A stretch of 64,000 nucleotides of DNA, from contig NZ_CP031557.1 of assembly GCF_003403075.1 (NCBI RefSeq), forward strand, positions 2,790,001 to 2,854,000, given 5' to 3'. The notes beneath the pieces were generated by a model. The model was not told where the DNA came from, did no database searches, and was given only the letters and a program-made list of their open reading frames with translations. Positions 23,195-48,789 of this stretch are shown one piece after another (the stretch's first letter is position 1; each line of letters starts with the position of its first letter). The DNA comes from Flavobacterium psychrotrophum. GTDB taxonomy: Bacteria > Bacteroidota > Bacteroidia > Flavobacteriales > Flavobacteriaceae. Both the position numbers and the translations under genes were made by a program.

Positions 23195-23228
23195 CAAAGA
23201 TATAATTATAAGTGTAAAATATACAATT
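23195..23228 (-). promoter_or_regulatory. MFS-gene promoter with predicted AraR operator
   Basis: On the minus strand a TANNTTTG -7 element (TATCTTTG, 23195-23202) is preceded at 21 nt by TTG (23224-23226). Between and overlapping them lies the 19-bp site 23210-23228 (AAGTGTA-N5-TACAATT), the centre of a wider near-palindrome from 23202 to 23233. Binding there would block polymerase directly. Confidence 0.6.
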
Positions 23229-23665
23229 ATAATATTTTTCATTGCTTCAATAAAAAGCAAAAATAGTAAATTTGATTGTTCTTGAATTACAAATAATATG
23301 ATGGTATTAAATTTCATTCAAAAGACAATCACAATTATTGTTTTAGCAACTTTCTTTGAAAAAAAAGACGAAAAAGTAATGTGCATTAAATAATTATAGT
23401 ACATTTGACTATAACTAATTCTCACCCTAACCAATTTAAACAGAAAACACTATGAAATTATATAGAACATGAATTATCTCACGGGCGGAAGTTCAATCAC
23501 AAGCTCCCTTCTACTTCGGTACATAATACCGCATAAACCTATAAGTATCGATATCATAAAATGTATAATTCTTTTACGCACACATTTTATACAGACGTTA
23601 ATTTTATAGGCATAATTTATAAAATCTATATTTTTTTGGTCTAACTCTTGTATATGTCGAAAAAT
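23229..23665. other. Non-coding part of the MFS-araA intergenic gap
   Basis: The 605-bp gap between the divergent MFS gene and araA contains no gene I can support. A 31-codon and a 46-codon ATG frame on the plus strand (from 23298 and 23468) look like chance. A GC-richer patch at about 23468-23550 stands out in otherwise AT-rich DNA and could be a decayed coding fragment. Confidence 0.5.
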
Positions 23666-23684
23666 TAGTGTTATTTCGACACTT
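23666..23684 (+). promoter_or_regulatory. Predicted AraR operator upstream of araA
   Basis: A 19-bp site (TAGTGTTATTTCGACACTT) with inverted AGTGT/ACACT arms 7 nt apart, 90 bp before the araA ATG. It matches the ACACTT end and 19-bp frame of the sites before the MFS gene, araB and susC. No clear TANNTTTG promoter element could be fixed around it. Confidence 0.55.
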
Positions 23685-23773
23685 ATTAATTTATAGTTTC
23701 TTTAACAGAAACTAACAGACTTAAAAAGGGGTAGTTACCCCACAACAAACAACAATTTTTTACAAACATAATT

Positions 23774-25264
23774 ATGATTGACTTAAAAACATTTGAGGTG
23801 TGGTTTGTAACCGGAAGCCAAAACCTTTATGGCGATGAAACACTTAGACTTGTAGCAGAACATTCTCAGGAAATTGCAAAAGGCCTTGACGCTTCGGGCA
23901 AAATACCTGTACGTGTGGTATATAAGCCTACTGTAAAAAGTACTCAGGAAATATATGATACGCTTGTAGCTGCAAACACTGCCGAAAATGTAATAGGTGT
24001 TATTACCTGGATGCACACTTTTTCTCCTGCCAAAATGTGGATCAGGGGTCTTGCTGCTTTAAAGAAACCTTTACTGCACCTGCACACACAATACAACCGC
24101 GACATTCCGTGGAGCTCTATGGATATGGACTTTATGAACCTTAACCAGAGTGCACACGGCGACCGTGAGTTTGGTTTTATGGTATCGCGCATGCGCAAAA
24201 ACCGTAAAGTTGTTGTAGGTCACTGGCAATCTGCCGATGTAGAAGAGCAAATAGGCAACTGGAGCCGTGCAGCAGCCGGATGGCATGACTGGCAAGGTGG
24301 TAAATTTGCCCGTTTTGGAGATAATATGCGTTTTGTTGCCGTAACAGATGGCGATAAAGTTGAGGCAGAACTTCAGTTCGGTTTCTCTGTAAACAGCTAT
24401 GGTATTGGCGATCTTGTGGCTTTAATCGACGCAGTTTCCGCAAACGATATTGAAGCACTTATCGAAGAATATAAAGAAAAATACACCATTGCGGCTGACC
24501 TGCTTCCGGGTGGTGAGCGTCACAGCTCTGTATACGAAGCGGCAAGAATTGAAATTGCACTTCGCAAATTCCTGGTAGACGGTGGCTTTAAAGGCTTCTC
24601 TGATACTTTTGAAGACCTTCATGGTATGGTACAGCTTCCGGGCCTTGCGGTACAAAGGCTTCTTGCAGATGGCTTTGGCTTTGCCGGAGAAGGCGACTGG
24701 AAAACAGCAGCCCTTGTGCGTGCATTTAAAGTTATGGGTAGCGGCCTTGAAGGCGGTAACGGCTTTATGGAAGACTACACCTACCACTTTGACCCTAACA
24801 ACGAGCTTGTACTTGGTTCTCACATGCTTGAGATCGACGAGTCGCTTGCTTCTACAAAACCAAGCCTTGAGGTGCACCCATTAGGTATTGGTGGTAAGGC
24901 AGACCCTGCACGCCTTGTATTTAATGTAGCCGGTGGCGCAGCCCTAAACGCTTCTATCATAGACGTGGGTAACCGTTTCCGTATGATTGTTAACGAAGTT
25001 GAAGCTGTAGAGCCACAACATGAATTACCAAACCTACCGGTAGCACGCGTTCTTTGGAAACCACTTCCTGACATGAAAACCGGTTGTGCCGGATGGATCT
25101 ATGCCGGTGGTGCTCACCACACTGCTTACAGCCAGAACCTTTCTGCAGAAACCATACAGGATTTTACAGAGATGGCAGGTATCGAATTTATCCGCATTGG
25201 TAAAGATTCTACTATAGACAGCATCAAGAATGAACTTAGGTGGAACGATATTGCCTTTAAATAG
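23774..25264 (+). CDS. araA: L-arabinose isomerase
   Basis: A 496-residue AraA converting L-arabinose to L-ribulose, the first step of the isomerase pathway. Typical segments are [17 protein letters not shown] at the N terminus, [68 protein letters not shown] and the C-terminal [11 protein letters not shown]; the metal/catalytic Glu and His residues lie in these motifs. First gene of the plus-strand arabinose arm, with a predicted AraR operator upstream. Confidence 0.97.
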
Positions 25265-25315
25265 TAAAGTGCTATCTTAGGCACTTTTTAAACCAAATCT
25301 CAAACGTTATAAATT

Positions 25316-27022
25316 ATGGGCAATTTTGAAACCATTGATTATGTAATTTTCATTGCTTACTTTTTCATAGTCTCCGGTTACGGGTATTATATTTACAAAA
25401 GCAAAAAAAAGGAAGAAGGCGAAGTGTCTGACTCTAAAGACTTTTTCCTTGCCGAAGGTTCGCTTACATGGTGGGCCATTGGTGCATCGCTTATTGCATC
25501 TAACATCTCTGCAGAGCAGTTTATCGGAATGAGCGGTAACGGTTTTGTGGTGGGTGTAGCGGTAGCCGCTTATGAGTGGATTGCTGCCATAGCACTTATT
25601 ATTGTGGCTGTATGGTTTATACCCGTATATCTTAAAAATAAGATATTTACCATGCCTCAGTTCCTCGAAAACAGGTATAACCAGACTACGAGCCTTATTA
25701 TGGCTATATTCTGGCTGTTTTTATATGTGTTTGTAAACCTTACTTCTATCCTTTATCTGGGTGCTATTGCTATAGCAAACATGGCAGGCATGGATCATTT
25801 CCATACCATTGTTATTGTTATGGCTATCTTCTCCCTGTTCATTACACTGGGCGGTATGAAGGTTATTGGCTTTACAGACGTTATACAGGTAGTAGTACTT
25901 GTAATAGGTGGCCTTGCTACTACTTACATAGCGCTTACCCTTGTTAGCGAGCACTTTGGGTTAGGTACAGATGCTATTGCTGGCTTTAAGGCCATGATGC
26001 AGGATGCTCCGGACCACTTCCAGCTTATGGGTACAAAACCGGGACCGGGTGCAAGCCAGGCTGAAGTAAACAAATACCTTATGCTTCCTGGTATTGCAAT
26101 GTATTTTGCAGGTATCTGGATCGTTAACCTTAACTATTGGGGTTGTAACCAGTACATTACACAACGTGCCCTGGGTGCCGATCTTAAAACAGCACGTACA
26201 GGTATCCTGTTTGCAGGTTTCATGAAACTGGCTATGCCGGTAATTGTAATGCTTCCGGGTATTGCTGCTTATGTACTTTACAAAAATGGCGCTCTTCAAA
26301 CAGAAATGGGTGTAGGAGAAGCCTTTAAGGCAGATAACGCTTACTCAGCTATCCTTAGTTTCCTACCAACAGGATTAAAAGGTCTTTCGGTTGCTGCACT
26401 TACTGCTGCTATCGTAGCATCGCTTGCAGGTAAGGCAAACAGTATCTCAACAATATTTACACTGGATATTTACAAGCGTTACATCAACAAAGATGCAGGC
26501 GAGAAAAAACTGGTAATCATGGGGCGTATCGCTATCCTTGCTGCCATTATCTTCTCTGTAGCACTTACATGGAATGACGCTCTTGGAATAGGTGGCGAAG
26601 GCGGATTTACCTTTATCCAAAAATATACAGGCTTCTTTAGCCCGGGTGTATTTGCAGTGTTCCTTTTAGGTATGTTCTGGAAACGTACTACCGGTGCAGC
26701 AGCTGTTGCAGGTGTTGTAGGTGGCTTTGTGCTGTCTGTATTCTTTAATAGCTATGCAGTAGATTTGTTTGGCCCTGAAACCATTTTATGGACAGCTTAC
26801 CAAAATGCAGCTGGGCATTATGAAATACCATTCCTTATCTGTATGGGCTGGGCATTTTTCTTTACCTTGCTAATGATGATCGCTATGAGCCTTGCCGGCC
26901 CTAAGATCAATCCTAAAGCATACGGACTGGATACTGCTATGTTTAAAGTGGCTCCTTCTACACTGGCGCTTATCGTAGTAACATTACTATGTGTTGCCGG
27001 ACTTTATATAACATTCTGGTAA
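25316..27022 (+). CDS. Sodium/solute symporter (SSS family), probable L-arabinose importer
   Basis: A 568-residue SSS-family carrier with about 14 hydrophobic helices, like the SglT-type sodium/sugar symporters. Recognisable parts are DFFLAEGSLTWWAIGASLIA (with SNISAEQFIGMSGN following), a signature of sugar SSS proteins, and the core helix stretch ALTAAIVASLAGKANSIST. Position 51 bp after araA and before the pentose-phosphate genes makes L-arabinose the likely cargo. Inner-membrane import would follow SusCD uptake and periplasmic hydrolysis. Confidence 0.9.
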   Translation: MGNFETIDYVIFIAYFFIVSGYGYYIYKSKKKEEGEVSDSKDFFLAEGSLTWWAIGASLIASNISAEQFIGMSGNGFVVGVAVAAYEWIAAIALIIVAVWFIPVYLKNKIFTMPQFLENRYNQTTSLIMAIFWLFLYVFVNLTSILYLGAIAIANMAGMDHFHTIVIVMAIFSLFITLGGMKVIGFTDVIQVVVLVIGGLATTYIALTLVSEHFGLGTDAIAGFKAMMQDAPDHFQLMGTKPGPGASQAEVNKYLMLPGIAMYFAGIWIVNLNYWGCNQYITQRALGADLKTARTGILFAGFMKLAMPVIVMLPGIAAYVLYKNGALQTEMGVGEAFKADNAYSAILSFLPTGLKGLSVAALTAAIVASLAGKANSISTIFTLDIYKRYINKDAGEKKLVIMGRIAILAAIIFSVALTWNDALGIGGEGGFTFIQKYTGFFSPGVFAVFLLGMFWKRTTGAAAVAGVVGGFVLSVFFNSYAVDLFGPETILWTAYQNAAGHYEIPFLICMGWAFFFTLLMMIAMSLAGPKINPKAYGLDTAMFKVAPSTLALIVVTLLCVAGLYITFW

Positions 27023-27040
27023 AACTTAAACTCACACAAT

Positions 27041-27703
27041 ATGAAATTTTTTATTGACACCGCTAACCTTGCCCAGATTAAAGAGGCACACGAGCTTGGC
27101 GTGCTGGATGGTGTAACTACTAACCCGTCGCTTATGGCTAAGGAAGGTATTACCGGACAGGAAAATATTATAAACCACTACAAAGCCATTTGCGAAATTA
27201 CCGATGGCGATGTTAGTGCAGAGGTTATTGCAACTACTTTTAACGAAATGGTTGCCGAAGGCGAAGCTCTTGCTGCCCTGCACCCACAAATCGTGGTAAA
27301 ACTACCTATGATAAAAGACGGTGTAAAAGCTGCAAAATACTTTTCAGAAAAAGGTATCAAAACTAATGTAACCCTTGTATTCTCTGCTGGTCAGGCACTA
27401 CTTGCCGCTAAGGCAGGCGCTACCTATGTATCGCCTTTTGTAGGCCGCCTTGACGATATTTCTACAGACGGACTTAACCTTATCCAGGAAATCCGCCAGA
27501 TCTATGATAACTACGGTTATGAGACAGAAATACTTGCAGCATCTGTGCGCCACACTATGCATATTGTAAACTGTGCAAAACTGGGCGCTGATGTTATTAC
27601 AGGCCCGCTTAGCGCAATAGAATCGTTACTTAAACACCCGCTTACCGATAATGGCCTTGCCCAGTTCCTGGCAGACCACGCTGCAGCGGCTTCAAAAGCA
27701 TAA
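27041..27703 (+). CDS. fsa: Transaldolase / fructose-6-phosphate aldolase-type enzyme
   Basis: A 220-residue class I aldolase of the small TAL/FSA family (full-length transaldolases are about 310-390). Motifs: [29 protein letters not shown], the Schiff-base Lys region [31 protein letters not shown] and FVGRLDDIS. Within a run of pentose-phosphate genes, transaldolase activity (sedoheptulose 7-phosphate plus glyceraldehyde 3-phosphate) makes better sense than fructose-6-phosphate aldolase; the family does not separate the two by length. It is 18 bp after the symporter gene. Confidence 0.88.
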
Positions 27704-27709
27704 TTATTT

Positions 27710-28561
27710 ATGGAAAAGATAACCGATATAAAAAAATTAGAACAGATAGCCAGCCAGGTGCGCCGCGACATTGTGCGTATGGTACACGGCTGCCAGAGTG
27801 GCCACCCGGGCGGATCTCTGGGCTGTACTGACTATCTTGTAGCATTGTATTTTAATGCCATGACCCGCAAAGAGGGTTTTGATATGGACGGTAAAAATGA
27901 AGATTTGTTCTTCCTTTCTAACGGTCACATCTCTCCGCTGTTTTACAGCGTACTGGCACATGCAGGTTACTATGATAAGAGTGAGCTTGCTACTTTTCGT
28001 AAGTTAAACACAAGGCTTCAGGGCCACCCCACCACGCACGAGCACCTACCGGGTATCCGGATTGCATCGGGTTCATTAGGGCAAGGAATGAGTGTTGCCA
28101 TAGGTTCGGCTTTAGCCAAAAAACTAAATGGTGATAACAGCCTTGTATATGCGCTTTTTGGCGATGGCGAACTTCAGGAAGGCCAGATATGGGAAGCAGC
28201 AATGTTTGCACCGCACAACCGTGTAGATAACCTTATATGTGCTGTAGACTACAACGGCCAGCAGATAGACGGGCCTACAAGCCAGGTACTTTCTCTGGGC
28301 GACCTTAAGGCCAAATTTGCAGCGTTTGACTGGACAGTACTTGAAAGCGATGGTAACGATATGGCTACAATAGTTGCCAAACTTGCCGAAGCTAAAGAAC
28401 TTACAGGCCAGGGCAAACCTATTGTTATTTTGCTAAAAACAGGTATGGGCCACGGCGTAGACTACATGATGGGCAGCCACAAATGGCATGGTGCCGCACC
28501 AAACGATGCTCAGCTTGAAGCCGCACTGGTACAACTTGAAGAAACGCTTGGGGATTATTAA
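27710..28561 (+). CDS. Transketolase, N-terminal (TPP-binding) subunit
   Basis: A 283-residue protein equal to the first half of transketolase: GGSLGCTDYLVALYF, the HGITGLL-like ISPLFYSVLAHAGYY region, GSLGQGMSVAIGSAL, and the thiamine diphosphate/Mg motif GDGELQEGQIWEAAMFA with DYNGQQ. It needs the second-half subunit encoded at 28662. The pair interconverts xylulose 5-phosphate, the product of AraA/B/D, with glyceraldehyde 3-phosphate and C7/C6 sugars. Starts 6 bp after the transaldolase-type gene. Confidence 0.93.
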   Translation: MEKITDIKKLEQIASQVRRDIVRMVHGCQSGHPGGSLGCTDYLVALYFNAMTRKEGFDMDGKNEDLFFLSNGHISPLFYSVLAHAGYYDKSELATFRKLNTRLQGHPTTHEHLPGIRIASGSLGQGMSVAIGSALAKKLNGDNSLVYALFGDGELQEGQIWEAAMFAPHNRVDNLICAVDYNGQQIDGPTSQVLSLGDLKAKFAAFDWTVLESDGNDMATIVAKLAEAKELTGQGKPIVILLKTGMGHGVDYMMGSHKWHGAAPNDAQLEAALVQLEETLGDY

Positions 28562-28651
28562 TTTAAAGATTGAAAATTTAAATATTGAAAGATTCAGGAC
28601 GGTTTAACCATACTGCAATTTTTAAATCTTTCAATCATTAAATTCTTAAAT
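28562..28651. repeat. AT-rich imperfect inverted repeat between the transketolase genes
   Basis: Arms at about 28562-28597 and 28616-28651 share ATTGAAAGATT and TTTAAA words in inverted orientation. It fills the 100-bp gap between the two transketolase subunit genes. It could form a hairpin inside the operon mRNA; no coding content. Confidence 0.45.
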
Positions 28652-28661
28652 GAGAAAAAGC

Positions 28662-29618
28662 ATGAAAAAATACACATACACAGAATCAAAAGATACGCGT
28701 TCCGGCTTTGGGGCGGGATTGCTTGAGGCAGGCAGGCGCAACAGCAATGTTGTGGCACTGTGTGCTGACCTTGTTGCCTCGCTAAAAATGCAGGATTTCA
28801 TCAATGAATTTCCTGAGCGTTTTATACAGGTAGGTATTGCCGAGGCTAACATGATAGGCATCGCGGCAGGTCTTACCATAGGCGGAAAAATTCCGTTTAC
28901 GGGTACGTTTGCAAACTTTTCTACAGGAAGGGTTTACGACCAGATACGCCAGAGTGTTGCCTACTCAGACAAAAATGTAAAAATATGTGCATCTCACGCC
29001 GGTCTAACACTGGGTGAAGATGGTGCAACCCACCAGATACTGGAGGATATAGGCCTTATGAAGATGCTTCCGGGCATGACGGTTATCAACCCGTGCGATT
29101 ACAACCAGACAAAGGCGGCTACTATAGCCATTGCTGAATATGAAGGTCCTGTATACCTACGTTTTGGCCGTCCGGTGGTGCCTATATTTACCGATGCAGA
29201 CCAGAAGTTTGAGATAGGTAAGGCATGGATGGTAAACGAAGGTGCAGACGTAAGTATTTTTGCTACAGGCCACTTAGTATGGGAAGCCATACAAGCAGGC
29301 GAAAAACTTGCAGAAATGGGCATTGATGCAGAGATCATTAACATTCATACCATTAAGCCTCTGGATGCAGAAGCAGTACTAAAATCGGTAGCCAAAACAG
29401 GCTGCGTGGTTACTGCCGAAGAACATAACAGGCTGGGTGGCCTGGGCGATAGTATTGCACAGCTGCTTGCAACCAACAACCCTGCCCCACAGGAGTATGT
29501 TGCTGTTAACGACAGCTTTGGCGAAAGCGGAACCCCTGCCCAGCTTATGACTAAGTACGGCCTGGATGCTGAACACATTATTAAAGCAGTGCAAAAAGTT
29601 ATAGCACGCAAAAAATAA
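28662..29618 (+). CDS. Transketolase, C-terminal subunit
   Basis: A 318-residue protein from the ATG at 28662 (an in-frame ATG 12 bp upstream is also possible). It holds the pyrimidine-binding and C-terminal transketolase domains: KKYTYTESKDTRSGFGAGL, IQVGIAEANMIGIAAGL (the catalytic Glu), PFTGTFANFSTGRVYDQIR, SHAGLTLGEDGATHQ, and GCVVTAEEHNRLGGLGDS. Split transketolases of this kind are found in many bacteria next to pentose catabolic genes. A terminator follows. Confidence 0.93.
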   Translation: MKKYTYTESKDTRSGFGAGLLEAGRRNSNVVALCADLVASLKMQDFINEFPERFIQVGIAEANMIGIAAGLTIGGKIPFTGTFANFSTGRVYDQIRQSVAYSDKNVKICASHAGLTLGEDGATHQILEDIGLMKMLPGMTVINPCDYNQTKAATIAIAEYEGPVYLRFGRPVVPIFTDADQKFEIGKAWMVNEGADVSIFATGHLVWEAIQAGEKLAEMGIDAEIINIHTIKPLDAEAVLKSVAKTGCVVTAEEHNRLGGLGDSIAQLLATNNPAPQEYVAVNDSFGESGTPAQLMTKYGLDAEHIIKAVQKVIARKK

Positions 29619-36520: not shown

Positions 36521-36528
36521 GTAAAATT

Positions 36529-38517: not shown

Positions 38518-38556
38518 GTTTATTCTAGTTTTGGTTTTGTTCAATTTCTTTAATCA

Positions 38557-38579
38557 TCAGGCATTCGTTACTTGCCTGA
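38557..38579 (-). other. Hairpin between GH43 and GH51 genes
   Basis: A 7-bp stem (38557-38563 TCAGGCA with 38573-38579) with a 9-nt loop in the 68-bp gap before the GH51 gene. No strong T-tract follows on the minus strand. Confidence 0.4.
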
Positions 38580-38585
38580 ATCCTT

Positions 38586-39593
38586 TTATTTATCCATTGG
38601 CTGTACAAGAGGCCAGCCATCTTTCCAGCTTATTTCTTTAATCTTAAGCTTTGGTGCGCCTTTTTGGGCAATTTCATATGCATGAAATACCAAATAGTCT
38701 TTACCATTAAAGGTATAGGCGCTATTGTGCCCTACACCTGCCCAGTTCTTGTTGCCTTCTATAACCAGTGTGCCACCACCCTGGTTCAGGTCTTTTCCGG
38801 CAGCATCAAGGTATGGGCCTTGTACTGTTTTGCTGCGGCCTACAACAACTTTATAGGTGCTGTTTTCGCCACGGCAGCAATAATCCCATGACAGGAACAG
38901 GTAGTACCAACCGTCTTTTTTAAATACAAACGGTGCCTCTAGTGCTGCATCGCCCGGGTCTTTATCCTCAAGGCTAAAACTGCGCTCGCGGCGGGCAATG
39001 GTAAACCATTCTTCAGGTTTTGCAATTGAAAGTAAATCCTTTGACAGCTTTACCATTTTAAGCCCGTCCCAAAACGAGCCAAAGGTTAGCCATGGTGTGT
39101 TGTTTTCATCATATATGAGGTTAGGGTCTATGGCATTCCACAGGTCGCGGTTAGGTACAGACTGCACAACGATACCGTGGTCAGTCCATTTAAAATCTTT
39201 TGACGCCGGGTCTAATGTCTTGTTGGTTGCCACACCTATTGCCGATGTGTTTTTTGCAAATGATGAAACGGAGTAATACAAATAGTATTGCCCGTTGTGT
39301 AAGCTTACATCCGGAGCCCAGATGTGGTTTTTAAAATCTGCTGCCACACCAGTAGCCCAGGTTGGTGCATTTTCAAAAACAGGCTTTTCCTTCGTCCAGC
39401 TTTTCATGTCTTTTGATGAAAATACCGAAATGCCATGCCCGGTGCAAAACAGGTAATAGGTACCATTTTGCTGTATCATTACAGGGTCGTGCACAATTGT
39501 TTCGTTTATGGGCAGCGCTTTCTGCGAAAAGACGCTGCCGTAAACGAAAAACAAAACTAAACTAACCCAAACATAACTAACTTGTTTTTTCAT
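38586..39593 (-). CDS. GH43 arabinan endo- or exo-arabinosidase
   Basis: A 335-residue exported enzyme (signal peptide ending in VFSQ). GH43 five-blade propeller residues: base Asp in ETIVHDPVMI (D36), pKa-modulating Asp in NAIDPNLIYD and acid Glu in LEAPFVFKKDGWYYLFLSW. The FGSFWDGLKM motif and CCRG segment recall endo-1,5-alpha-L-arabinanases. Likely hydrolyses the arabinan backbone with its two GH43 neighbours. Located 5 bp after the next GH43 gene. Confidence 0.9.
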   Translation of the reverse strand: MKKQVSYVWVSLVLFFVYGSVFSQKALPINETIVHDPVMIQQNGTYYLFCTGHGISVFSSKDMKSWTKEKPVFENAPTWATGVAADFKNHIWAPDVSLHNGQYYLYYSVSSFAKNTSAIGVATNKTLDPASKDFKWTDHGIVVQSVPNRDLWNAIDPNLIYDENNTPWLTFGSFWDGLKMVKLSKDLLSIAKPEEWFTIARRERSFSLEDKDPGDAALEAPFVFKKDGWYYLFLSWDYCCRGENSTYKVVVGRSKTVQGPYLDAAGKDLNQGGGTLVIEGNKNWAGVGHNSAYTFNGKDYLVFHAYEIAQKGAPKLKIKEISWKDGWPLVQPMDK

Positions 39594-39598
39594 GTATA

Positions 39599-40561
39599 TT
39601 ATTTTTGGATGCCCTCGGTAGTCATTACTATACGCTTAAGGGTACCATCATTATTATAGTACAATTTATCTATACATACCGAGCGGCGAAAACTACCGCC
39701 ATGAGGCTGTATGGCACCATTATGGTATATAAAATATGACTGCCCTTTAAATTCTATTATAGACTGGTGGTTTGTATTACTATTACCGGCCAGCTCGTTT
39801 AGAATACCTTTGTACTCCCACGGCCCTTCAATGCTTTTGCTCATGGCGTAGGCTAACTTTTCAGGAAACTGGTAAGCATAAGAAAGGTAATACCAGTCTT
39901 TATGCTTGTGTATCCACGGCGCTTCGGTAAAGTTTGGCAGGTCTACAACTTTAATATCCCCGTCAACTTCAGTCATGTTCTCTTTAAGCTTTACATATTT
40001 ACAAACAGTATTACCCCAATACAAATATGCCTGTCCTTTATCTATATATACAGCAGGATCGATATCATCCCAACTGATAGACGTTTGTGTGGTCATATCG
40101 TTTGTAATAAGTGCTTTGCCAAGAGCATCTTTAAAAGGCCCTAGCGGAGAATCTGAAACCGCCACACCTATTGCCTTACCCGGTATTGTACCATGTTCTA
40201 CACATACATACCAGTAAAACTTGCCATCACGCTCTATAACCTGGGCAGCCCAGGCATCGCCCTTAGCCCATTTAAAATCTGAGGCTTTAAGTGGCACCGG
40301 GTGCTTTTTCCAGGTTACCATATCGGCAGATGAATATACAAGCCACTCATTCATCTTATAAAAGTTGAAATCGTTTGGTGCCTCGTCATGCCCGCCATAC
40401 AGGTAAACCGAATCCTTGTACACCATTGCAGCGGGATCGCCTATGTAGGTATCTTTTATTATAGGGTTATTTTCTGATGGTTTTGTTACCCCCTTTTTCT
40501 TTTGGGCAACACAGCCCAACGAAAGGGCTACCGCAAAAAACACCAATATCTTTTTCTTCAT
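39599..40561 (-). CDS. GH43-family glycosidase, probable arabinofuranosidase/arabinosidase
   Basis: A 320-residue exported protein; the signal peptide has a Cys at SLGC, so it may be lipidated. GH43 motifs: Asp in TYIGDPAAMVYKDSVYLYGG (base), DDIDPAVYIDKGQAYLYW, and Glu in NFTEAPWIHKHKDWYYLSY (acid). It lacks the FGSFWDG loop of its neighbour, so it probably acts on side chains or oligosaccharides. Substrate is inferred from the operon only. GH43 genes here are separated by 5 and 41 bp. Confidence 0.88.
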   Translation of the reverse strand: MKKKILVFFAVALSLGCVAQKKKGVTKPSENNPIIKDTYIGDPAAMVYKDSVYLYGGHDEAPNDFNFYKMNEWLVYSSADMVTWKKHPVPLKASDFKWAKGDAWAAQVIERDGKFYWYVCVEHGTIPGKAIGVAVSDSPLGPFKDALGKALITNDMTTQTSISWDDIDPAVYIDKGQAYLYWGNTVCKYVKLKENMTEVDGDIKVVDLPNFTEAPWIHKHKDWYYLSYAYQFPEKLAYAMSKSIEGPWEYKGILNELAGNSNTNHQSIIEFKGQSYFIYHNGAIQPHGGSFRRSVCIDKLYYNNDGTLKRIVMTTEGIQK

Positions 40562-40578
40562 AATTGTATTTTGTATGT

Positions 40579-40605
40579 TAACCGGAAACCAATCCTTTCC
40601 GGTTA
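40579..40605 (-). other. Hairpin over the GH43 arabinanase stop codon
   Basis: A perfect 10-bp stem (40579-40588 with 40596-40605, TAACCGGAAA type) whose end includes the stop codon of the upstream cistron. No T-run follows, so read-through with an mRNA end-stabilising role is possible. Confidence 0.5.
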
Positions 40606-42198
40606 GTAAATTTTCTTACCCCAAAGCGGTTTTCCATCAGTAGCGGAACCGGAAATGGTTAAAGCAACTTTTCTTGGAGAAGCCTCCCAGTCCCAGCCAT
40701 TAAATATTTTACACTCAATACCGTTAATTATAACTGCATTTTTTGCGCTATCATATGACCAGGTTCCTGTCATTCCGTCACCTACAGTACCATTAGCATT
40801 AAGGCTTACTGTAACTGATTTTTGTATTACCTTATATTGATAATTCATATTGATTATCTCCCAGGCACCCACAAAAGAAGCATCTGTAAGTGTTGCTGCC
40901 GGTACACCCGCATAACGCTCTGGCGCTACAACCGGCCATCCGTCAGATGTCCAATCCATTTCCCTTACCTGGCCCATCATTACTGCATTAGACGCATTGA
41001 TACCCGGTACGTTTTCCGGTAATCTGCCCTGAGATGTAAAGTACCATTTACCATTAGCCTCATCCTGAATAACACCACAATGAGAAATACCTACCCAGCC
41101 GGTATGGTTATTAAAAGCATAAGGGTGCGTTAACATAGGCCAGGCATCTGCCCCCTCTGTAATACTTTGCCCATTTTTGCCTACATAAGGGCCGGTAATG
41201 TTTCTTGACCTTGCCACCCTGGTATTGTAAGCTACCGAAAGCTCATCATATGCAAGGAACAGGTAGTAATATCCTGTTTGTGCATTATATACAATTTCCG
41301 GACCTTCAAGCGCCTGCCACCTGTTTGTGCTTATATTTCCACGGCCTGATATGCGCACACCATAGTCATCAATAGTATTAAGCTGGTAAGGCCTGCCTGT
41401 TTCCGGGTTAATTTTTACGGCAGCAATTCCTGTATGCCATGACCCGTAAATAAGCCAGTGCTCTCCTTCAGGTGTTGCAATATAACTTGGGTCAATGCTG
41501 TTAAACTTATAATATGCATTCCAGTCGTTTGCTCCGTTTCTTACATGACTTGTAACACCATCCGAAATATTGCAAATCACCATACCTTTATCTTCCCATT
41601 GGTTAGAAGCCAGGCTTGTGGTTTCCATCATACCAATATAAGCTTCCTCACCCCATGATCTGGCAGGATCTGTACCTTCAACAAGTGCGTCATTTATCAC
41701 ACTATAATACATCCTGAATTTATTACCTACTTTACGCACACATGGCGCCCAGTAACCATAGGTAATATTCTGTATAGGTGCACGCCCTTCTATAGCCCTG
41801 CGTGTATTGATTTCATCTTTAACCCAGTTAGCCTCACCTGTCATTGCAGCCCCCAGGTATTCCCAGTTTATAAGGTCTAGAGAACGCCTTGCATGAAAGT
41901 GTCCGTGACCAAAAGAAGCATTACCATAAGATGCATCTGTCTGGTACATATAAAAGTACTGCCCGTCTTTAACTATCGTAGGGTCATGTACGTTTGCAAG
42001 GTTCCACTGGTTCCTGTTTTCCCAACCGCTAATTGCAGTATAATTATCGGCATATTTAGGGCCATTAAAGGTTTCGCCTACCGGGCCATCGTCATCTGTA
42101 CCTCCGCCTGTACCTCCAGATTCGTTATCATCTTTGGTACAGCCTATAGTAAGAAAACAGGCTAGCATGAATACTATATAAGGTTTAATATTTTTCAT
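40603..42198 (-). CDS. GH43 endo-1,5-alpha-L-arabinanase lipoprotein with C-terminal beta domain
   Basis: A 531-residue lipoprotein (lipobox FLTIGC, then a Gly/Asp linker). GH43 domain about 70-430: base Asp in NVHDPTIVKDGQYFYMYQT, FNSIDPSYIATPEGEHWLIY and acid Glu in LEGPEIVYNAQTGYYYLFL, plus GISHCGVIQDE. The C-terminal 95 residues (VTVSLNANGTVGDGMTGTW ...) form a small beta domain found at the end of large extracellular arabinanases. Surface-exposed enzyme cutting the arabinan backbone for SusCD import is the expected role. Confidence 0.92.
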   Translation of the reverse strand: MKNIKPYIVFMLACFLTIGCTKDDNESGGTGGGTDDDGPVGETFNGPKYADNYTAISGWENRNQWNLANVHDPTIVKDGQYFYMYQTDASYGNASFGHGHFHARRSLDLINWEYLGAAMTGEANWVKDEINTRRAIEGRAPIQNITYGYWAPCVRKVGNKFRMYYSVINDALVEGTDPARSWGEEAYIGMMETTSLASNQWEDKGMVICNISDGVTSHVRNGANDWNAYYKFNSIDPSYIATPEGEHWLIYGSWHTGIAAVKINPETGRPYQLNTIDDYGVRISGRGNISTNRWQALEGPEIVYNAQTGYYYLFLAYDELSVAYNTRVARSRNITGPYVGKNGQSITEGADAWPMLTHPYAFNNHTGWVGISHCGVIQDEANGKWYFTSQGRLPENVPGINASNAVMMGQVREMDWTSDGWPVVAPERYAGVPAATLTDASFVGAWEIINMNYQYKVIQKSVTVSLNANGTVGDGMTGTWSYDSAKNAVIINGIECKIFNGWDWEASPRKVALTISGSATDGKPLWGKKIY

Positions 42199-42253
42199 AG
42201 CTATTAGATTAATATTTTTAAAAAATCTGAAAATTCACTTTAAAGTCTATATT

Positions 42254-42279
42254 GTAAACAGATATTAAGCAATCTGTTT
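42254..42279 (-). other. Hairpin between GH51 and GH43 arabinanase genes
   Basis: An 8-bp inverted repeat (AAACAGAT with ATCTGTTT, about 42254-42279) in the 119-bp gap. It is not followed by a T-run on the minus strand. Confidence 0.4.
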
Positions 42280-42317
42280 ATCTGCATATTACATATAAAC
42301 AGACCGCTTAATACTTT

Positions 42318-43874
42318 TTATTTTGCTTCAAATACCACTACCGAAAATGGAGGAAGGGTTACACTAAGTACTCCTTTTTTGTATTTAAAGTCTTTAAAAT
42401 CTTTAGGCGTAATTGCGTTCGGGTTTTCGAACGTATTGTGATCCTGAAGTTTTCCTGAAGAAACGATCTTAGCTGTAAAATCTTTCAGGTTAAGGCCTTC
42501 AAGGTTGATATCTGTAGCAATCTTATCTGTTGAATGGATGTTAACCAATGAGATATGTGTTTTACCATCTTTAACAGAAGCAGATACACTTACTGCCTTA
42601 AGGGTTTCATTACCTACCTTATAATCTGGCGATTCTAACGTTACAGGAAGTAATTTTGCATCCTGGTGCGCTTTATAAAGCTTCATGATATGGTATGTAG
42701 GCGTAAGCAGCATCTTATCTGCTTTAGTAAGTATTACGGCCTGCAGTACATTAACCGTTTGTGCAAGGTTAGCCATGCGTACACGGTCGCTGTGGTTGTT
42801 AAAAATATTTAGTGTAGTACCCGCTATCATAGCATCGCGCATGGTATTTTGCTGATACAGGAAGCCCGGGTTAGTACCCTCTTCTACATCATACCATCCG
42901 CCCCACTCGTCTACAATAAGCGCTATCTTTTTTTCAGGGTCATACTTGTCCATGATCTCGCTGTGCTTAGTAACCAGCTCTTCCATTTTAAGGGCTGTCT
43001 TCATGGTTTCAAAGTACTGCTTCTCATCAAATTTGGTGGATGATCCTTTGTGGTCCCATTCAACAAATGAGTAAGAGTGCAGCGCTACACCCTCAATAAG
43101 AGATTTTGGTATATCGCGCATTAATACTTCTGTCCAGTGATAATCTGCTACGTTAGCCCCGGATGCAATACGGAAAAGCTTTCCGCTGTTAGACCAGTCG
43201 CCCATAAAAGTGGCATACTGCCTGTAAAGGTTTGCATAATATTCTGGTGTCATGTTACCGCCACAACCCCACATTTCGTTACCCACACCCCATATCCTTA
43301 CACCCCACGGATTTTCGCGGCTGTTTTTTTTACGAAGGTCGCTCATTGGACTTTTGCCACCGTGGTTTACATATTGTACCCACTCTGCAAACTCCTGTAC
43401 AGTACCACTACCTACGTTAGCGGCAAGGTAAGGCTCAGTGCCCAGGGTTTCGCATAGGTCTAAGAAATCGTGTGTACCAAAGCTGTTATCTTCGGTAACG
43501 CCACCCCACCATTGGTTTACAATAGTAGGCCTTTCACTTTTTGGGCCAATACCGTTTTTCCAGTGGTAAGTATCTGCAAAGCAGCCACCCGGCCAGCGAA
43601 GGTTAGGTATACCAAGATCTTTAAGTGCCGCAATAATGTCATTACGCACACCATTAGTATTAGGTATTTTGCTGTCTGCACCTACATAAAAACCGTCATA
43701 AATACAACGCCCAAGGTGCTCTGCAAAATGCCCATAAATATGTTTATCAATTTTAGGTGCAGCTGCTTCAGCTTTTACTTTAACAGTTGCTTTTTGTTGT
43801 GCCGTGAGAGCACCGGGCAGCAATGACGCTGCGGTAAAAAATAATGCGGTAACTATTTTATTGTGTTTGCCCAT
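42318..43874 (-). CDS. GH51 alpha-L-arabinofuranosidase (AbfA type)
   Basis: A 518-residue exported GH51 enzyme (signal ending LTAQQ). Motifs: IYGHFAEHLGRCIYDG, LRWPGGCFADTYHWK, acid/base Glu200 in GVGNEMWGCGG, GVALHSYSF and nucleophile Glu323 in LIVDEWGGWYD. This is the compact catalytic form without the N-terminal module of the other GH51 enzyme in the operon, so the two probably differ in substrate range (debranching versus oligosaccharide). Third gene of the susC operon. Confidence 0.95.
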   Translation of the reverse strand: MGKHNKIVTALFFTAASLLPGALTAQQKATVKVKAEAAAPKIDKHIYGHFAEHLGRCIYDGFYVGADSKIPNTNGVRNDIIAALKDLGIPNLRWPGGCFADTYHWKNGIGPKSERPTIVNQWWGGVTEDNSFGTHDFLDLCETLGTEPYLAANVGSGTVQEFAEWVQYVNHGGKSPMSDLRKKNSRENPWGVRIWGVGNEMWGCGGNMTPEYYANLYRQYATFMGDWSNSGKLFRIASGANVADYHWTEVLMRDIPKSLIEGVALHSYSFVEWDHKGSSTKFDEKQYFETMKTALKMEELVTKHSEIMDKYDPEKKIALIVDEWGGWYDVEEGTNPGFLYQQNTMRDAMIAGTTLNIFNNHSDRVRMANLAQTVNVLQAVILTKADKMLLTPTYHIMKLYKAHQDAKLLPVTLESPDYKVGNETLKAVSVSASVKDGKTHISLVNIHSTDKIATDINLEGLNLKDFTAKIVSSGKLQDHNTFENPNAITPKDFKDFKYKKGVLSVTLPPFSVVVFEAK

Positions 43875-43890
43875 AATGTGTTTAAAATTT

Positions 43891-43934
43891 TAATACCGTG
43901 CAGTGGGCCCTCACATGCCCGCCGCACGGTATTA
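43891..43934 (-). other. Strong hairpin between susD and GH51 (possible attenuating terminator)
   Basis: A perfect 11-bp stem (43891-43901 TAATACCGTGC with 43924-43934) enclosing a GC-rich 22-nt loop in the 86-bp gap after susD. On the minus strand it is followed by AAATTTT-type sequence rather than a long T-run. It may stabilise susCD mRNA or reduce transcription of the downstream enzyme genes. Confidence 0.6.
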
Positions 43935-43960
43935 AGTTTATTCTTTAATAATAAGTTGTA

Positions 43961-45523
43961 TTAGTAGCTTGGGTTTTGTACAGTACCCGGGTTGTTATCC
44001 ATTTCAAGCTGTGGTATAGGGAAGAATTCCCTGCCCGGCTGATAAGTATTAAACTCTGCATCACGGGTTTTAAGCCATGCAAGCTTAGTTGCATCTTCTA
44101 ACCAGCCCCAACGACGAATATCGTCAAAACGGTGGCCTTCTGAAGCAAACTCAAGAAAACGTTCGTGACCTATCTGCTCTCTCATTTGTGCCTGCGTCAT
44201 GTTAGGCTTAACAGTTGCAAGATCTGGCAATTGTACCCTGCTCCTTACCTGCTGTATGTAAGTGTAAGCCTGAGGTGTCTGACCAAGTTCGTTAAGACAC
44301 TCAGCATACATAAGCAATACATCAGAATAACGCATAAGGCGCTCATTTATACCGCTTCTCCAATCCATTTCATCCGGAAAATCGCCGTCAGCATTCTGGT
44401 ATTTTCTCCAGAATAAGTCGTTAAGATCTGCCGGGCTGTTTCTATAAAAAGTAGCAAAATCATGCCCATAAAGCATCATTCCCGGCTTATTATAAATTAT
44501 AGTAACATCAAGCCTTGGGTCTACGCCACCGCTAACAGTAGCTTCTTCTTTAAATTCATTAAATAGTGTCCATGTAGGCTGCATATCTGTAAAACCAAAA
44601 ACACGGGGTGCATATGTAATAGCACGTGCTGAAGTTTTACCCCAGTCAGAACCGGGAGCTCCGCCCCAGCCAAGGGCTACACCACCCGCATCACGGCTAA
44701 ACTGAACTTCGAAAATCGATTCTGAATTGTTTTCGTTTGCAGTAGTAAAGTTGTCTTTATAGTTAGACACAAGAGAGTACCCAAGAGCCATAACTGCTTC
44801 AAAATTAGTTTTAGCAGCAGCATACTCTTTATTAAAAAGCTGTGCCTTTGCAAGATAAGCAAGAGCAGCACCTTTAGTAGCTCTACCTTTTTCGCCGGCA
44901 TCAACACCGGCAACAGTGGTGTAAGAAACCGGAAGTAGCTCTGCTGCCATGGTAAGGTCTGCCTTTACCTGTGCCCAAGCCTCTTCCTGAGTTTTTTGTT
45001 CATGGTACACCTGCTCACTGGTTAGTGGTATAGGCACATTTTTAAACATATTTACAGCATGAAACAAATAAAGACCCCTAAGGAAATAGGTTTGCCCCAA
45101 TAGCCTGTTTTTGTAAGCCTCATCTGTAAATGTTATACCCGGCACCTTATCTAATACCTGGTTAGCACGATAAATACCCTGATAGTAGGTTTCAAATGCC
45201 CAACCGTAAATTGAAGCATCTGCAATGTTAGAGTTAAACCTACCCACGTTTGCCATAGCAGCCCATGGACTGTTACTGCGTGCATCATCTGCCTTACCAT
45301 CCAGCAAAAGCGGTGTGCTTCTCATATAGGTACCATCTGTAATAAGACTGGCATATACTGCATTTACACCTTTAGCCGCATCTTCCTCTGTTTTCCAGAA
45401 CGCTGCCGCGCTATCAAGGTTAGGGTCAATTTGATGTAATTCATCATCCTTTACACAACCCGTTAGCGTAAGTGCCAGTACGGGAATGATAAGCGATTTT
45501 TTTATAGTAAATATATTTTTCAT
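43961..45523 (-). CDS. susD: SusD/RagB-family arabinan-binding lipoprotein
   Basis: A 520-residue outer-membrane lipoprotein (lipobox LTLTGC). The SusD fold is visible as TPR-like helices with the WKTEEDA, GQTYFLRGLYLFHAVNMF and KGAALAYLAKAQLF motifs, and the C-terminal DIRRWGWLED ... NTYQPGREFFPIPQLEMDNN. It lids the SusC porin and binds oligosaccharides at the cell surface. It follows susC by 19 bp. Specificity for arabinan is inferred from the operon. Confidence 0.94.
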   Translation of the reverse strand: MKNIFTIKKSLIIPVLALTLTGCVKDDELHQIDPNLDSAAAFWKTEEDAAKGVNAVYASLITDGTYMRSTPLLLDGKADDARSNSPWAAMANVGRFNSNIADASIYGWAFETYYQGIYRANQVLDKVPGITFTDEAYKNRLLGQTYFLRGLYLFHAVNMFKNVPIPLTSEQVYHEQKTQEEAWAQVKADLTMAAELLPVSYTTVAGVDAGEKGRATKGAALAYLAKAQLFNKEYAAAKTNFEAVMALGYSLVSNYKDNFTTANENNSESIFEVQFSRDAGGVALGWGGAPGSDWGKTSARAITYAPRVFGFTDMQPTWTLFNEFKEEATVSGGVDPRLDVTIIYNKPGMMLYGHDFATFYRNSPADLNDLFWRKYQNADGDFPDEMDWRSGINERLMRYSDVLLMYAECLNELGQTPQAYTYIQQVRSRVQLPDLATVKPNMTQAQMREQIGHERFLEFASEGHRFDDIRRWGWLEDATKLAWLKTRDAEFNTYQPGREFFPIPQLEMDNNPGTVQNPSY

Positions 45524-45542
45524 GACTTTTTCATATTATTTT

Positions 45543-48500
45543 TTAGAAACTTGCTTCTATACCAAAAGCGAACGTACGTGGGTTAGGGAATGAACCATTA
45601 TCAAAACCTCTTGAAAGTAGGCCGTCATTTCCGTTAAAATCAGGATCTACACCCTTGTAAGGAGTAATAGTAAGCAGGTTAGACCCTTGTACATATAGGC
45701 GAACTCTTTCTACAAACTTGTTTTTCTCCATAGGTACGTTGTAGCCAACCTGAAGGTTTTGCAGCCTTAAGTAGTCTCCTTTTTGTATAAAACGGGTAGA
45801 CTCCCTGTTGTTTTGGTTAACGTCATTAAATGTAGGACGTGGTACATTGGTATTGGTATTTTCTGGCGTCCAGTAGTTAAGCTCATCTTTATGGCTGTTA
45901 AGAATACCACCCTGCATAAGTGCCGCATAGGTACCGTTAAACACTTTGTTACCACCATGACCTTGCCAGAACATTGAGAAATCAAAGTTTTTATAGCTGG
46001 CATTAAAGTTAAAACCATAGCTGTATTTAGGTATAGAGGTACCTAAGTGTGTACGGTCATCACTAGTAATTTGACCGTCGCCATTTACGTCTTTAAATTT
46101 AACATCGCCGGGTTCAGCTCCTAACTGTGTAGCATGATTTGCTATATCGTCTGTATTCTGGAAAATACCTTCTGCAACATAAGCAAACAAATCACCTGCA
46201 CTATGGCCAACTTCTGTAATAGATGCTGCACCATAAATAGGCAGTCCATCGTTAGCTATCTTAAGCACTTTATTTTTAAGTGTACCAAGGTTTGCATTTA
46301 CATCCCACTGAAAATCATGATCGTGATTGCTGTAACTTACTGTAAACTCAAAGCCCTGGTTTCTAATTCTGCCTACGTTAGTACGTATGTTAGCAGGGAA
46401 CGCGCCTGTAGAAAATGGCAACGGCTGCCCTACGATGATATCATCTGAAGTTCTTACAAAATATTCTGTAGTAAACTGTAGCTTGTTTTTAAACATGGCA
46501 AATTCTAATGCCACATTTGTAGTAGATGTTTCTTCCCACTTGATATTAGGGTCTTTAAGATCTATTACTGTAGTACCCGGAGCTAAGCCGTTATTAAATG
46601 TATATGATGCAAATGGATTTACTACAGCAGAATAATCGTAGTTAGCTATTGTATTGTTACCAAGTAAACCATAACCTCCTCTTAGCTTAAGGGTATCCCA
46701 CCACTCAGGTAGCTTAAGATCATTACTTATTTTATAAGCACCTGATACAGAGTAATAATTACCGGTGTCATTTTTAGGAGCGAACTTAGAAGACCTGTCC
46801 TGACGGAAGTTACCTGTAATGTAGTATGTATCATTAAAACTATAGTTTATCCTTCCTAATAGTGACTTTCTTGTTTCTCTCTGAAAGTTTTCTCCTCCGG
46901 AAATAGCATCTGCAAACTGTATCTGAGAAATTTCGTTGTAGTCATATCCTACACCACGGCTCCACATGTACTGGTCTCTCCAGTCTTCCATAACACTACC
47001 TGCCATGGCATCAAAATGATGCTTACCAAAGTTTATGTCATAGTTAAGAAGGTTATCTACAATAGTCCTGGTGTTGTTAGTCTGGTTTATGTTAAGTGCT
47101 GATTCTGCCTTAACAGTAACATAGTACCATCCAAGGTCGCTTTGCGGCACAAACATCCTGTTTTTAAGATTCATCTGGTCCGCAGTAACCCTTGTAGTAA
47201 ACTTAAGCCCTTTTACTATTTCAAGTTCACCCCACACATTACCTATAAAACGGTTTCTGTTAGAGTCACTATTTACAAGGTTGTTCCAACCTATTACGTT
47301 AAGGATAATAGCCCTTTGTGAAAGGTTATCTGTACCACCATAACCGCCCAGCCTATTGGCATCATAAACCGGCATTGTAGGAATACCCTGAAGCAACGTT
47401 GTAATGGTAGATTCACCATTATATGATGTAAAGTTATCTTTACCAGAATCTGTATAGCCTAATTTAGCGCCATACTTAAATTTACCTTTTTGTCCACCTA
47501 TATTAAGTGTTGTAGCATAACGCTCAAATGCCTGAGGCACTTTAAGGTAACTTGTATTTTTAAAGTAGTCTACGTTCAGGCTATAATTCATAGTCTCTGA
47601 ACCGCCACTAAAGCTAAGCGAGTGGTTTTCTACCCTACCCGTGCGGTAAGCAGCATCCTGCCAGTTAGTATCAACATTGTTGATATAGTTAGGGCTACTA
47701 GGGTCGTTACCCGGTAGCAATGCCATACCCACGTTAGCAAAAGAAGCGTTTGCTATTTGCTGGTACTGCTCCCTATTTGTAACCGGGATTTTTCTTGCTA
47801 CTTCCTGAAAAGCTGTATATGCCTTGTAATTAACGCTGGTTTTACCGGCCTTACCTTTTTTAGTAGTAATAATTACTACACCATTAGCACCACGCACACC
47901 ATAAATAGCAGCCGAAGACGCATCTTTTAAAACCTGCATCGACTCAATTTCGCCCGGTGCAAAGTCATTTGGAGCATCTACGATCATACCGTCTATTACA
48001 AACAGTGGGTTGTTATTGTTAAAAGACGTTATACCACGTATTTTAATGTTTACAAAACCACCCGGCTCACCCGATGATTGTACTGTAACACCTGCTACCT
48101 GGCCCTGAAGCTGCTTGGCAACATCATAAGTAATGGTTTTTTTAGCATCTTCAACTTTTACCACACCTACAGATCCTGTAAGGTCTGATTTTTTTGCGGT
48201 ACCATAACCTATCACAACCACGTCGTCTAGCTGTGTAGCAGCGGTTGCAAGTTTTACATTAATAACAGTCTGGTTACCTACTTTAACCTCCTGGCTTGTA
48301 AAACCGATGTAAGAAAAAACTAATACATCGTTTGCGTTAGCCCTGATAGAAAAATTTCCGTCAAGATCTGTAGACACACTGTTTGATGTACCTTTAATAA
48401 GAACAGTTGCCATAGGCAGCGCCATACCATCTTCGGTAGAAGAAATAGTACCTGTTACAGCCACCTCCTGCGCAGAAGCGGTCATGACTGTAAATAAGAT

Positions 48501-48575
48501 AAGCATACAGGCGGCCAGCTCTTTTTTAAGGAGCCCTCCCCTAATTGCTTTAAATAACGTAGTTAATCTCATCAT
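45543..48575 (-). CDS. susC: SusC/RagA-family TonB-linked outer-membrane transporter
   Basis: A 1010-residue SusC protein. A signal peptide (to about TASAQ) is followed by a carboxypeptidase-regulatory-like beta domain (about 38-115, AVTGTISSTEDGMALPMATV), then the plug (LDDVVVIGYGTAKKSDLTGS, about 117-135 onwards, with the motif IRGITSFNNNNPLFVIDGM) and a 22-strand barrel ending in GIEASF. It imports arabinan oligosaccharides with SusD using TonB energy. First gene of the operon; promoter and predicted AraR operator lie just upstream. The start MM could be the second Met. Confidence 0.96.
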   Translation of the reverse strand: MMRLTTLFKAIRGGLLKKELAACMLILFTVMTASAQEVAVTGTISSTEDGMALPMATVLIKGTSNSVSTDLDGNFSIRANANDVLVFSYIGFTSQEVKVGNQTVINVKLATAATQLDDVVVIGYGTAKKSDLTGSVGVVKVEDAKKTITYDVAKQLQGQVAGVTVQSSGEPGGFVNIKIRGITSFNNNNPLFVIDGMIVDAPNDFAPGEIESMQVLKDASSAAIYGVRGANGVVIITTKKGKAGKTSVNYKAYTAFQEVARKIPVTNREQYQQIANASFANVGMALLPGNDPSSPNYINNVDTNWQDAAYRTGRVENHSLSFSGGSETMNYSLNVDYFKNTSYLKVPQAFERYATTLNIGGQKGKFKYGAKLGYTDSGKDNFTSYNGESTITTLLQGIPTMPVYDANRLGGYGGTDNLSQRAIILNVIGWNNLVNSDSNRNRFIGNVWGELEIVKGLKFTTRVTADQMNLKNRMFVPQSDLGWYYVTVKAESALNINQTNNTRTIVDNLLNYDINFGKHHFDAMAGSVMEDWRDQYMWSRGVGYDYNEISQIQFADAISGGENFQRETRKSLLGRINYSFNDTYYITGNFRQDRSSKFAPKNDTGNYYSVSGAYKISNDLKLPEWWDTLKLRGGYGLLGNNTIANYDYSAVVNPFASYTFNNGLAPGTTVIDLKDPNIKWEETSTTNVALEFAMFKNKLQFTTEYFVRTSDDIIVGQPLPFSTGAFPANIRTNVGRIRNQGFEFTVSYSNHDHDFQWDVNANLGTLKNKVLKIANDGLPIYGAASITEVGHSAGDLFAYVAEGIFQNTDDIANHATQLGAEPGDVKFKDVNGDGQITSDDRTHLGTSIPKYSYGFNFNASYKNFDFSMFWQGHGGNKVFNGTYAALMQGGILNSHKDELNYWTPENTNTNVPRPTFNDVNQNNRESTRFIQKGDYLRLQNLQVGYNVPMEKNKFVERVRLYVQGSNLLTITPYKGVDPDFNGNDGLLSRGFDNGSFPNPRTFAFGIEASF

Positions 48576-48600
48576 AAAAATAAAATTTGGTTCGTTTAAT

Positions 48601-48652
48601 AAATGTATTTTTTACACTTCCAAATTTAGTTAAAGATTATTTAAAAAAACAA
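48601..48652 (-). promoter_or_regulatory. susC promoter with predicted AraR operator
   Basis: On the minus strand TTG (48650-48652) and TAAATTTG (48621-48628) are 21 nt apart, matching the TTG-N-TANNTTTG promoter. The 19-bp site 48601-48619 (AAATGTATTTTTTACACTT on the plus strand) lies directly after the -7 box, over the expected start of transcription. Confidence 0.6.
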
Positions 48653-48758
48653 ATAAAATTTTCAAAAAGTGAAATTTTAACATAAATAAACTAATAAGAC
48701 CCTAATACTACAACGTTGTCAGCCATCAAATATATATTATTGCGATTTTTTCAAAATA

Positions 48759-48789
48759 ATTGTAATTTCGTACACTTGTTAGTATCTTG
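48759..48789 (+). promoter_or_regulatory. araR promoter with predicted autoregulatory AraR site
   Basis: TTG (48760-48762) and a TATCTTG element (48783-48789, imperfect TANNTTTG) are 20 nt apart. The ACACTT-type site 48759-48777 lies across the -33 box; its left half-site is shifted by 1 nt relative to the other four copies. This suggests repression of araR by its own product. Confidence 0.5.

Follow-up and report, generated by a model that had tools for sequence, protein, structure and literature searches.

The NrtR-family repressor AraR of Bacteroides thetaiotaomicron (BtAraR, BT0354) binds operators of the frame AAGTGT-N7-ACACTT and is released from them by arabinose in vitro, the printed operators holding seven bases between GTGT and ACAC (PMC4666351), and it behaves in vivo as an arabinose-responding repressor (PMC5061871). 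In this organism the arabinan locus depends on two further regulators, the hybrid two-component activator BT0366 and the global BT4338 (PMC5061871), and paired operators in Bacteroides are separated by 3 bp or by 42 nt (PMC4666351), the longer gap being equivalent, by our own arithmetic, to about 63 bp from start to start. The present analysis concerns a stretch of 64,000 nucleotides from Flavobacterium psychrotrophum (the window; positions 2790001-2854000 of a single 4.84-Mb contig), whose arabinose region (22032-49490) runs from an MFS transporter gene through an araA block, araB-araD and a susC-susD arabinan locus to araR. Sequence comparison makes it very likely that the AraR orthologue encoded there blocks RNA polymerase, as a sugar-free dimer, at operators in front of the MFS gene, araA, araB and susC, and that L-arabinose releases it. 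This kind of repressor is already known from gut Bacteroides; what is new is a predicted AraR regulon in another lineage, and no paper on AraR in Flavobacterium was found by title or beginning of abstract in the open-licence literature.

A first-pass annotation of the window had described five 19-bp sites sharing the frame AAGTGTA-N5-TACANTT. All five sequences are present where it placed them and each has an AAGTGT or ACACTT end, and the frame is exact in sites 1, 3 and 4; site 2, which reads AAGTGTC-GAAAT-AACACTA on the minus strand, departs from it at three positions and from AAGTGT-N7-ACACTT at one. The proposed consensus was rejected, since it leaves out site 2 and is more restrictive than what relatives carry. 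The correct frame is AAGTGT-N7-ACACTT, with seven bases between the halves as in the published BtAraR operators, and sites 1-4 each match it with one mismatch. The rejected frame occurs exactly at four places in the genome, three of them being sites 1, 3 and 4. With at most one mismatch, the seven-base frame is met four times in the window, against a mean of 0.16 and a maximum of 3 in 100 shuffles, and a scan of the whole genome gives 23 places against 7 for the backwards pattern; the frequency exceeds its control, and places of this kind occur beyond the genes first grouped.

The spacing of seven is a rule that extends far outside the window. In the best 80 loci by AraR similarity among the matches listed, all from other organisms and amounting to 1.477 Mb, AAGTGT-Nn-ACACTT with at most one mismatch occurs at 112 places when n is 7 and at 0-6 places for every other n from 3 to 12, while three control pairs of hexamers at n=7 give 1, 3 and 12 places. 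At least one such place is found in 69 of the 80 loci, and 102 of the 112 are intergenic by our own calls of open reading frames (ORFs), intergenic DNA making up 8.4% of the bases. A matrix trained only on these 102 places of the relatives (92 different; the ten non-intergenic ones excluded) ranks sites 1, 4, 3 and 2 as the top four of the 64 kb, where the best score in ten simulated sequences of this length is 13.3, and training without the 20 loci labelled Flavobacterium puts the same four on top. It bears out the earlier statement that no other promoter of the arabinose region carries a site, in that nothing besides sites 1-4 exceeds the best simulated score, the next candidate being 48667-48685. 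AraR relatives with N7 sites also lie on Balneola-type and Rhodothermia contigs (L102, L103, L107, L108, L110, L112); one further locus, L069, stands on a contig titled Rickettsiales, encodes an AraR near-identical to that of Marinoscillum pacificum, and is probably a misnamed bin.

The protein itself is, on its sequence, an AraR orthologue. Its domains follow the AraR order, a Nudix-like domain and then the AraR/NrtR winged helix, and among the matches listed it is closest to the AraR of Flavobacterium akiainvivens, F. subsaxonicum and F. zepuense (83-85% identity), the closest solved structure being BtAraR (PDB 5bs6, E 2.5e-70). It also matches PDB 3gz5 (E 5.3e-23; PDB name MutT/nudix family protein), which we take to be the NrtR of Shewanella oneidensis, a protein whose targets are NAD genes. 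The Nudix signature is broken, its three glutamates after G-x5-E-x7-R being replaced by V, H and L, and the arabinose ligands R34, R86 and H131 as well as the recognition-helix residues D178-K179-R180-N181 are kept in the window protein and in all 80 relatives. In a tree of 38 proteins, BtAraR groups with the 32 AraR proteins chosen, namely the window's own and 31 from the 80 relatives (96/97). Because this tree has long branches (10 for the Shewanella NrtR, more than 2 for two of the paralogues discussed next), only the placing of those paralogues outside the AraR group was used from it.

The genome also encodes four NrtR-family paralogues of 37-40% identity (at 3067574, 4442692, 2326924 and 3414549), which carry differing recognition helices. 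One of them might read some or all of the sites, a reading to which their presence in the same genome lends weight together with two places of the motif outside the window, 3409567 at about 5 kb from one paralogue and 2327949 about 260 bp upstream of another. Against it, none of the four keeps both K179 and R180, R34 is missing in all four, all stand outside the AraR group, and motif frequency goes with the AraR orthologue, so that we hold a paralogue reader to be very improbable. This last point derives from a comparison of 81 genomes across the genus, among them that of the window, in which an orthologue was called when the best E value was below 1e-90. An AraR orthologue is present in 25 of them and araA in 23, every genome with araA having the orthologue; the two orthologue genomes without araA are assemblies 89% and 75% complete. 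Across the 81 genomes the motif follows the gene: the 118.2 Mb of genomes with an orthologue contain AARTGT-N7-ACAYTT 277 times (2.34 per Mb) and the 174.9 Mb of genomes without one contain it 153 times (0.87), against 142 (1.20 per Mb) and 215 (1.23) for the backwards control.

Promoters were sought by regular expressions, the full form being TTG-N18-23-TANNTTTG. This form is present at sites 1 and 4; site 3 has TANNTTTG alone, 16 bp beyond the site, site 5 has an imperfect TATCTTG 5 bp beyond it, and no promoter element was found by these expressions within 80 bp of site 2. The claim that four of the five sites adjoin a TTG/TANNTTTG promoter therefore holds only if loose elements are counted. 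Sites 1 and 4 lie on or against promoter elements, in DNA that is AT-rich, which could mean that the sites are promoter or AT-rich sequence and not operators; given the sharp rule of seven in the 80 loci and the co-occurrence in the genus, such a motif rate being absent in shuffles and, relative to the backwards control, in the 56 genomes without the orthologue, we consider this extremely unlikely. Control by a Crp-like factor as in Bacteroides was also considered and dropped: TATGTTNTANAACATA with up to three mismatches is found at 13 places against 9.3 expected, and at none of the four promoters.

At the individual promoters, the 19 bp of the susC operator are identical in three relatives (L036, L037, L038), and a site scoring at least 13 lies within 500 bp upstream of araB in 19 of 22 genes from 21 relatives' genomes, starting in 13 of these 19 at 54-75 bp before the gene. 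The 19 bp of operator 2 are unchanged upstream of araA in the close relatives L159 and L161 and upstream of araB in L200, and a one-base variant precedes araB in L199 and L201. Of eight loci compared, five, from close relatives, have the MFS gene divergent from araA or araB; a second N7 site stands between the two genes in four of the five (L159, L161, L199, L201), and in the fifth (L200, F. akiainvivens) an N8 repeat occupies the MFS-araB position instead.

Several observations weigh against AraR control of all four units. Three of the six published DNA-contact residues are changed in the window protein (K184N, K204R, R205K; K179, R180 and N181 are kept), the Bacteroides letter being found at these positions in 17, 25 and 1 of the 80 relatives, respectively. 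Operator 2 is the weakest of the four, three of the 22 araB loci have no site, and upstream of araA a site is found in only 3 of 45 loci (the window, L159 and L161; at least one genome is counted twice). In the other 42, no site of at least 13 occurs within 500 bp; 25 of them have the next upstream ORF less than 100 bp away and the other 17 have it at 112-269 bp, so that membership of a longer operon would account for many araA genes without a site, perhaps not for all. In the genus, the Mann-Whitney p of 5e-11 for motif frequency with and without the orthologue is uncorrected for kinship; in the window's genome alone, AARTGT-N7-ACAYTT (11 places against 9 in the control) is not clearly enriched; and one genome without an AraR orthologue (G018) holds 27 places against 4 in the control, an excess which may come from another factor or a repeat using the same frame.

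With these points counted, AraR is still the most likely reader of sites 1-4, on the combined grounds of its domains, the BtAraR match, the kept residues, the spacer rule, the matrix and the co-occurrence, and the MFS gene, araA, araB and susC would therefore belong to one arabinose regulon. From what was computed, namely site conservation, the spacing rule, residue conservation and gene-motif co-occurrence, we infer AraR binding, repression and release by arabinose in the following manner. The sugar-free AraR dimer would sit on AAGTGT-N7-ACACTT at the four promoters and would block RNA polymerase: at the MFS promoter, operator 1 overlies the -33 TTG and extends over part of the spacer, and operator 4 begins one base past the -7 element (TAAATTTG) of the susC promoter, at the expected start of transcription. 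The binding of cytoplasmic L-arabinose to the Nudix-like domain would release AraR, and this release would turn on transport, arabinose catabolism and the arabinan locus together.

Site 5, in front of araR, had been described as having a half-site shifted by one base and as perhaps weaker. Its halves are indeed 8 bp apart, one base too many, and an operator role finds no support in its matrix rank, in the N8 spacing, which is not enriched in relatives, or in the loci L036-L039, where the ACACTT half is absent and the overlapping TTG is kept, as would be expected for a promoter element. Together with TATCTTG 20 bp further on, this TTG resembles an araR promoter. Site 5 could still be a real if weak operator with a spacer of eight, through which AraR would regulate its own gene. 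In favour of this, its two halves are undamaged and well flanked (matrix 21.1 when one spacer base is skipped), the site begins at the -33 TTG of araR and stops 5 bp short of the -7 element, AAGTGT-N8-ACACTT with at most one mismatch has no other place in the window, and the N8 inverted repeat of F. akiainvivens, each half of which has one mismatch, occupies the MFS-araB interval, in which other close relatives have N7. With at most one mismatch in all, N8 has no place in the 124 kb of intergenic DNA of the 80 relatives; if each half may carry one mismatch it has 9, inside the range of 2-9 seen for the other spacers from 4 to 11, against 129 for N7, and a looser N8 pattern lies within 150 bp of araR in two of 81 loci (the window and L063). 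In view of the good halves and the F. akiainvivens repeat we leave an appreciable, though lesser, chance that AraR touches site 5, and favour its reading as a promoter element.

Table. Features of the arabinose region (window coordinates) and further places of the motif in the genome (genome coordinates).
Feature	Coordinates	Strand	Position or evidence	Matrix score (window rank)
MFS transporter	22032..23168	-	Pfam MFS_1	
AraR operator 1 (predicted)	23210..23228		41 bp upstream of MFS gene	28.5 (1)
AraR operator 2 (predicted)	23666..23684		89 bp upstream of araA	18.4 (4)
araA, SSF symporter, transaldolase/FSA, two-part transketolase	23774..29618	+	intergenic gaps 6-88 bp	
GH97	29727-31649		108 bp downstream of araA unit	
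araB, araD	34072..36448	-	ORFs overlap by 14 bp	
AraR operator 3 (predicted)	36502..36520		53 bp upstream of araB	27.3 (3)
Arabinan utilisation locus: susC, susD, GH51, three GH43, GH51	36529..48575	-	family profiles	
AraR operator 4 (predicted)	48601..48619		25 bp upstream of susC	27.7 (2)
Weak second site, AAGTGAAATTTTAACATAA	48667..48685		upstream side of susC promoter, 66 bp from operator 4	6.5 (6)
Site 5, AATTGT-N8-ACACTT	48758..48777		doubtful as operator	-13.2 (625)
araR, Nudix-like and NrtR/AraR winged-helix repressor	48807..49490	+	Pfam NUDIX, NrtR_WHD, AraR_C; PDB 5bs6	
GH43 arabinanase-like gene	about 362579-363631 (L117 5580-6632)		place 363613, perfect AAGTGT-N7-ACACTT	
GH39			place 533673 upstream	
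GH31			place 1299753 upstream	
Between converging genes			place 1335100	
Second MFS gene			place 1647270 upstream	
Secreted 415-aa protein with type IX sorting tail	1827980-1829299 (L116 9971-11290)		place 1828010 and weaker 1827980, 30 bp apart	
1050-aa gene			places 2313068 and 2313548 upstream	
Second transketolase part			place 3110969 upstream	
782-aa protein			place 3409567 upstream	

The genes of the araA block probably form one operon, which GH97 may join. The transketolase close downstream of araA is split into two genes (27710-29618), an arrangement which suggests that arabinose induces the non-oxidative pentose phosphate pathway. The arabinose region also holds a gene for a 263-aa protein without a Pfam family and an aldose epimerase gene, and one of the three GH43 genes of the arabinan locus exceeds the NCBIfam cut-off for arabinan endo-1,5-alpha-L-arabinosidase.

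The grouping of the regulon in the first-pass annotation is supported for the MFS gene, araA, araB and susC and was too narrow in extent, because places of the same kind precede other sugar genes of the genome. Four of the 23 genomic places belong to the window; the inspection covered 13 of the other 19, and of these 10 are intergenic and 3 fall within ORFs. On sequence conservation, scanned in 12 of 26 loci, the regulon probably extends to the arabinanase-like and secreted-protein genes, whose sites are kept by orthologues: three close orthologues of the GH43 gene (84-88%) keep a changed site, located 26-90 bp ahead of the match, which is missing upstream in seven relatives of greater distance, and the secreted protein has two orthologues among 19 genomes, each of them keeping a site that starts 41 bp before the gene. 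In F. franklandianum the secreted-protein orthologue lies directly downstream of araR. Two of 30 homologues of this protein match Pfam Cthe_2159, a carbohydrate-binding family. Its structure model (mean pLDDT 86.6) gave two Foldseek matches with E < 0.001; the match to chitinase ChiW is unusable (TM score 0.16, root-mean-square deviation 16.8), and the DUF3244 match covers about 80 columns, like matches to sorting tails ranked lower, so that no function was drawn from the model. Searches of Pfam, NCBIfam and PDB gave no family for the 782-aa protein. An identical 19-bp sequence, AAGTATGTTGTCTACACTT, at genome positions 46479, 3205242 and 4407074, is perhaps a repeated element.

The weak second site upstream of the susC promoter is possibly a decayed partner operator; by score alone it is within chance, scores of at least 6 arising about twice per 64 kb. 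In the araR upstream regions of the 80 relatives and the window, 65 of 81 have a site of at least 5 and 20 have two or more, and 10 of the 30 pair spacings, the window's included, are 64-66 bp, where uniform placement would give 0.8% if kinship is ignored. These ten pairs come from Flavobacterium, Christiangramia, Wenyingzhuangia, Algibacter and Mariniflexile. Where araB is preceded by two sites, in five loci, the spacings are 65 (L198, a Mariniflexile genome), 65 (L190, which is the region also covered by L079), 53, 89 and 166 bp, and no second site scoring 5 was found in the araR upstream regions of L036-L038. It is conceivable, if rather unlikely, that AraR of Flavobacteriia acts through operator pairs 64-66 bp apart (about six helical turns) which flank the promoter and on which two dimers would close a small loop, that the outer partner has decayed in the window, that the arabinan locus is run by the monosaccharide-sensing AraR alone, with no adjacent hybrid two-component activator, unlike in Bacteroides, and that the regulon includes an undescribed family of secreted proteins. 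Looping stays a proposal because a promoter of the expected type lies between the sites in some of the ten pairs only, and so does sole control by AraR, since at least one hybrid regulator is encoded elsewhere in the genome (L125).

The operator rule drawn from the 80 loci predicts AraR targets in Flavobacteriaceae and in the more distant Balneolota and Rhodothermota. The analysis also names new candidate members of the regulon and suggests that arabinan genes may be controlled with no hybrid two-component system next to them. Balneolota and Rhodothermota were still part of Bacteroidetes at the time of the 2015 AraR paper, from which phylum alone AraR had reportedly been described.

Compared with known systems, the window protein resembles BtAraR in its domain make-up, arabinose ligands, recognition-helix core and operator frame (PMC4666351, PMC5061871), and the predicted regulon resembles that of B. 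thetaiotaomicron in joining arabinose and arabinan genes with GH43, GH51 and SusCD. It differs in the replaced residues K184, K204 and R205 and in its layout: the window's araR is solitary and divergent from susC, the araMPRDAB-type arrangement of Bacteroides, with araR within one arabinose operon and tandem operators, is absent from the gene map, araA and araBD are separate units, and the predicted units also hold the MFS gene and pentose-phosphate genes. None of the 30 ORFs scanned between 15453 and 57815 (several short ones being outside the scan) encodes a hybrid two-component regulator; the stretch 51976-54203 holds genes for a GAF histidine kinase and an AraC-type regulator. Each promoter has one predicted operator or a weak pair 66 bp apart, whereas the sites of B. 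thetaiotaomicron stand in tandem with a gap of 3 bp or 42 nt. Like the NrtR of Shewanella oneidensis, the protein combines Nudix and winged-helix domains; the ligand of that NrtR is ADP-ribose, unlike that of AraR (PMC4666351). Finally, the AraR of Bacillus subtilis is likewise an arabinose-released repressor of arabinose and arabinan genes (PMC4666351, PMC5061871), and belongs, as a GntR/LacI-type protein, to an unrelated family, so that the two are similar in their working and not in kinship.

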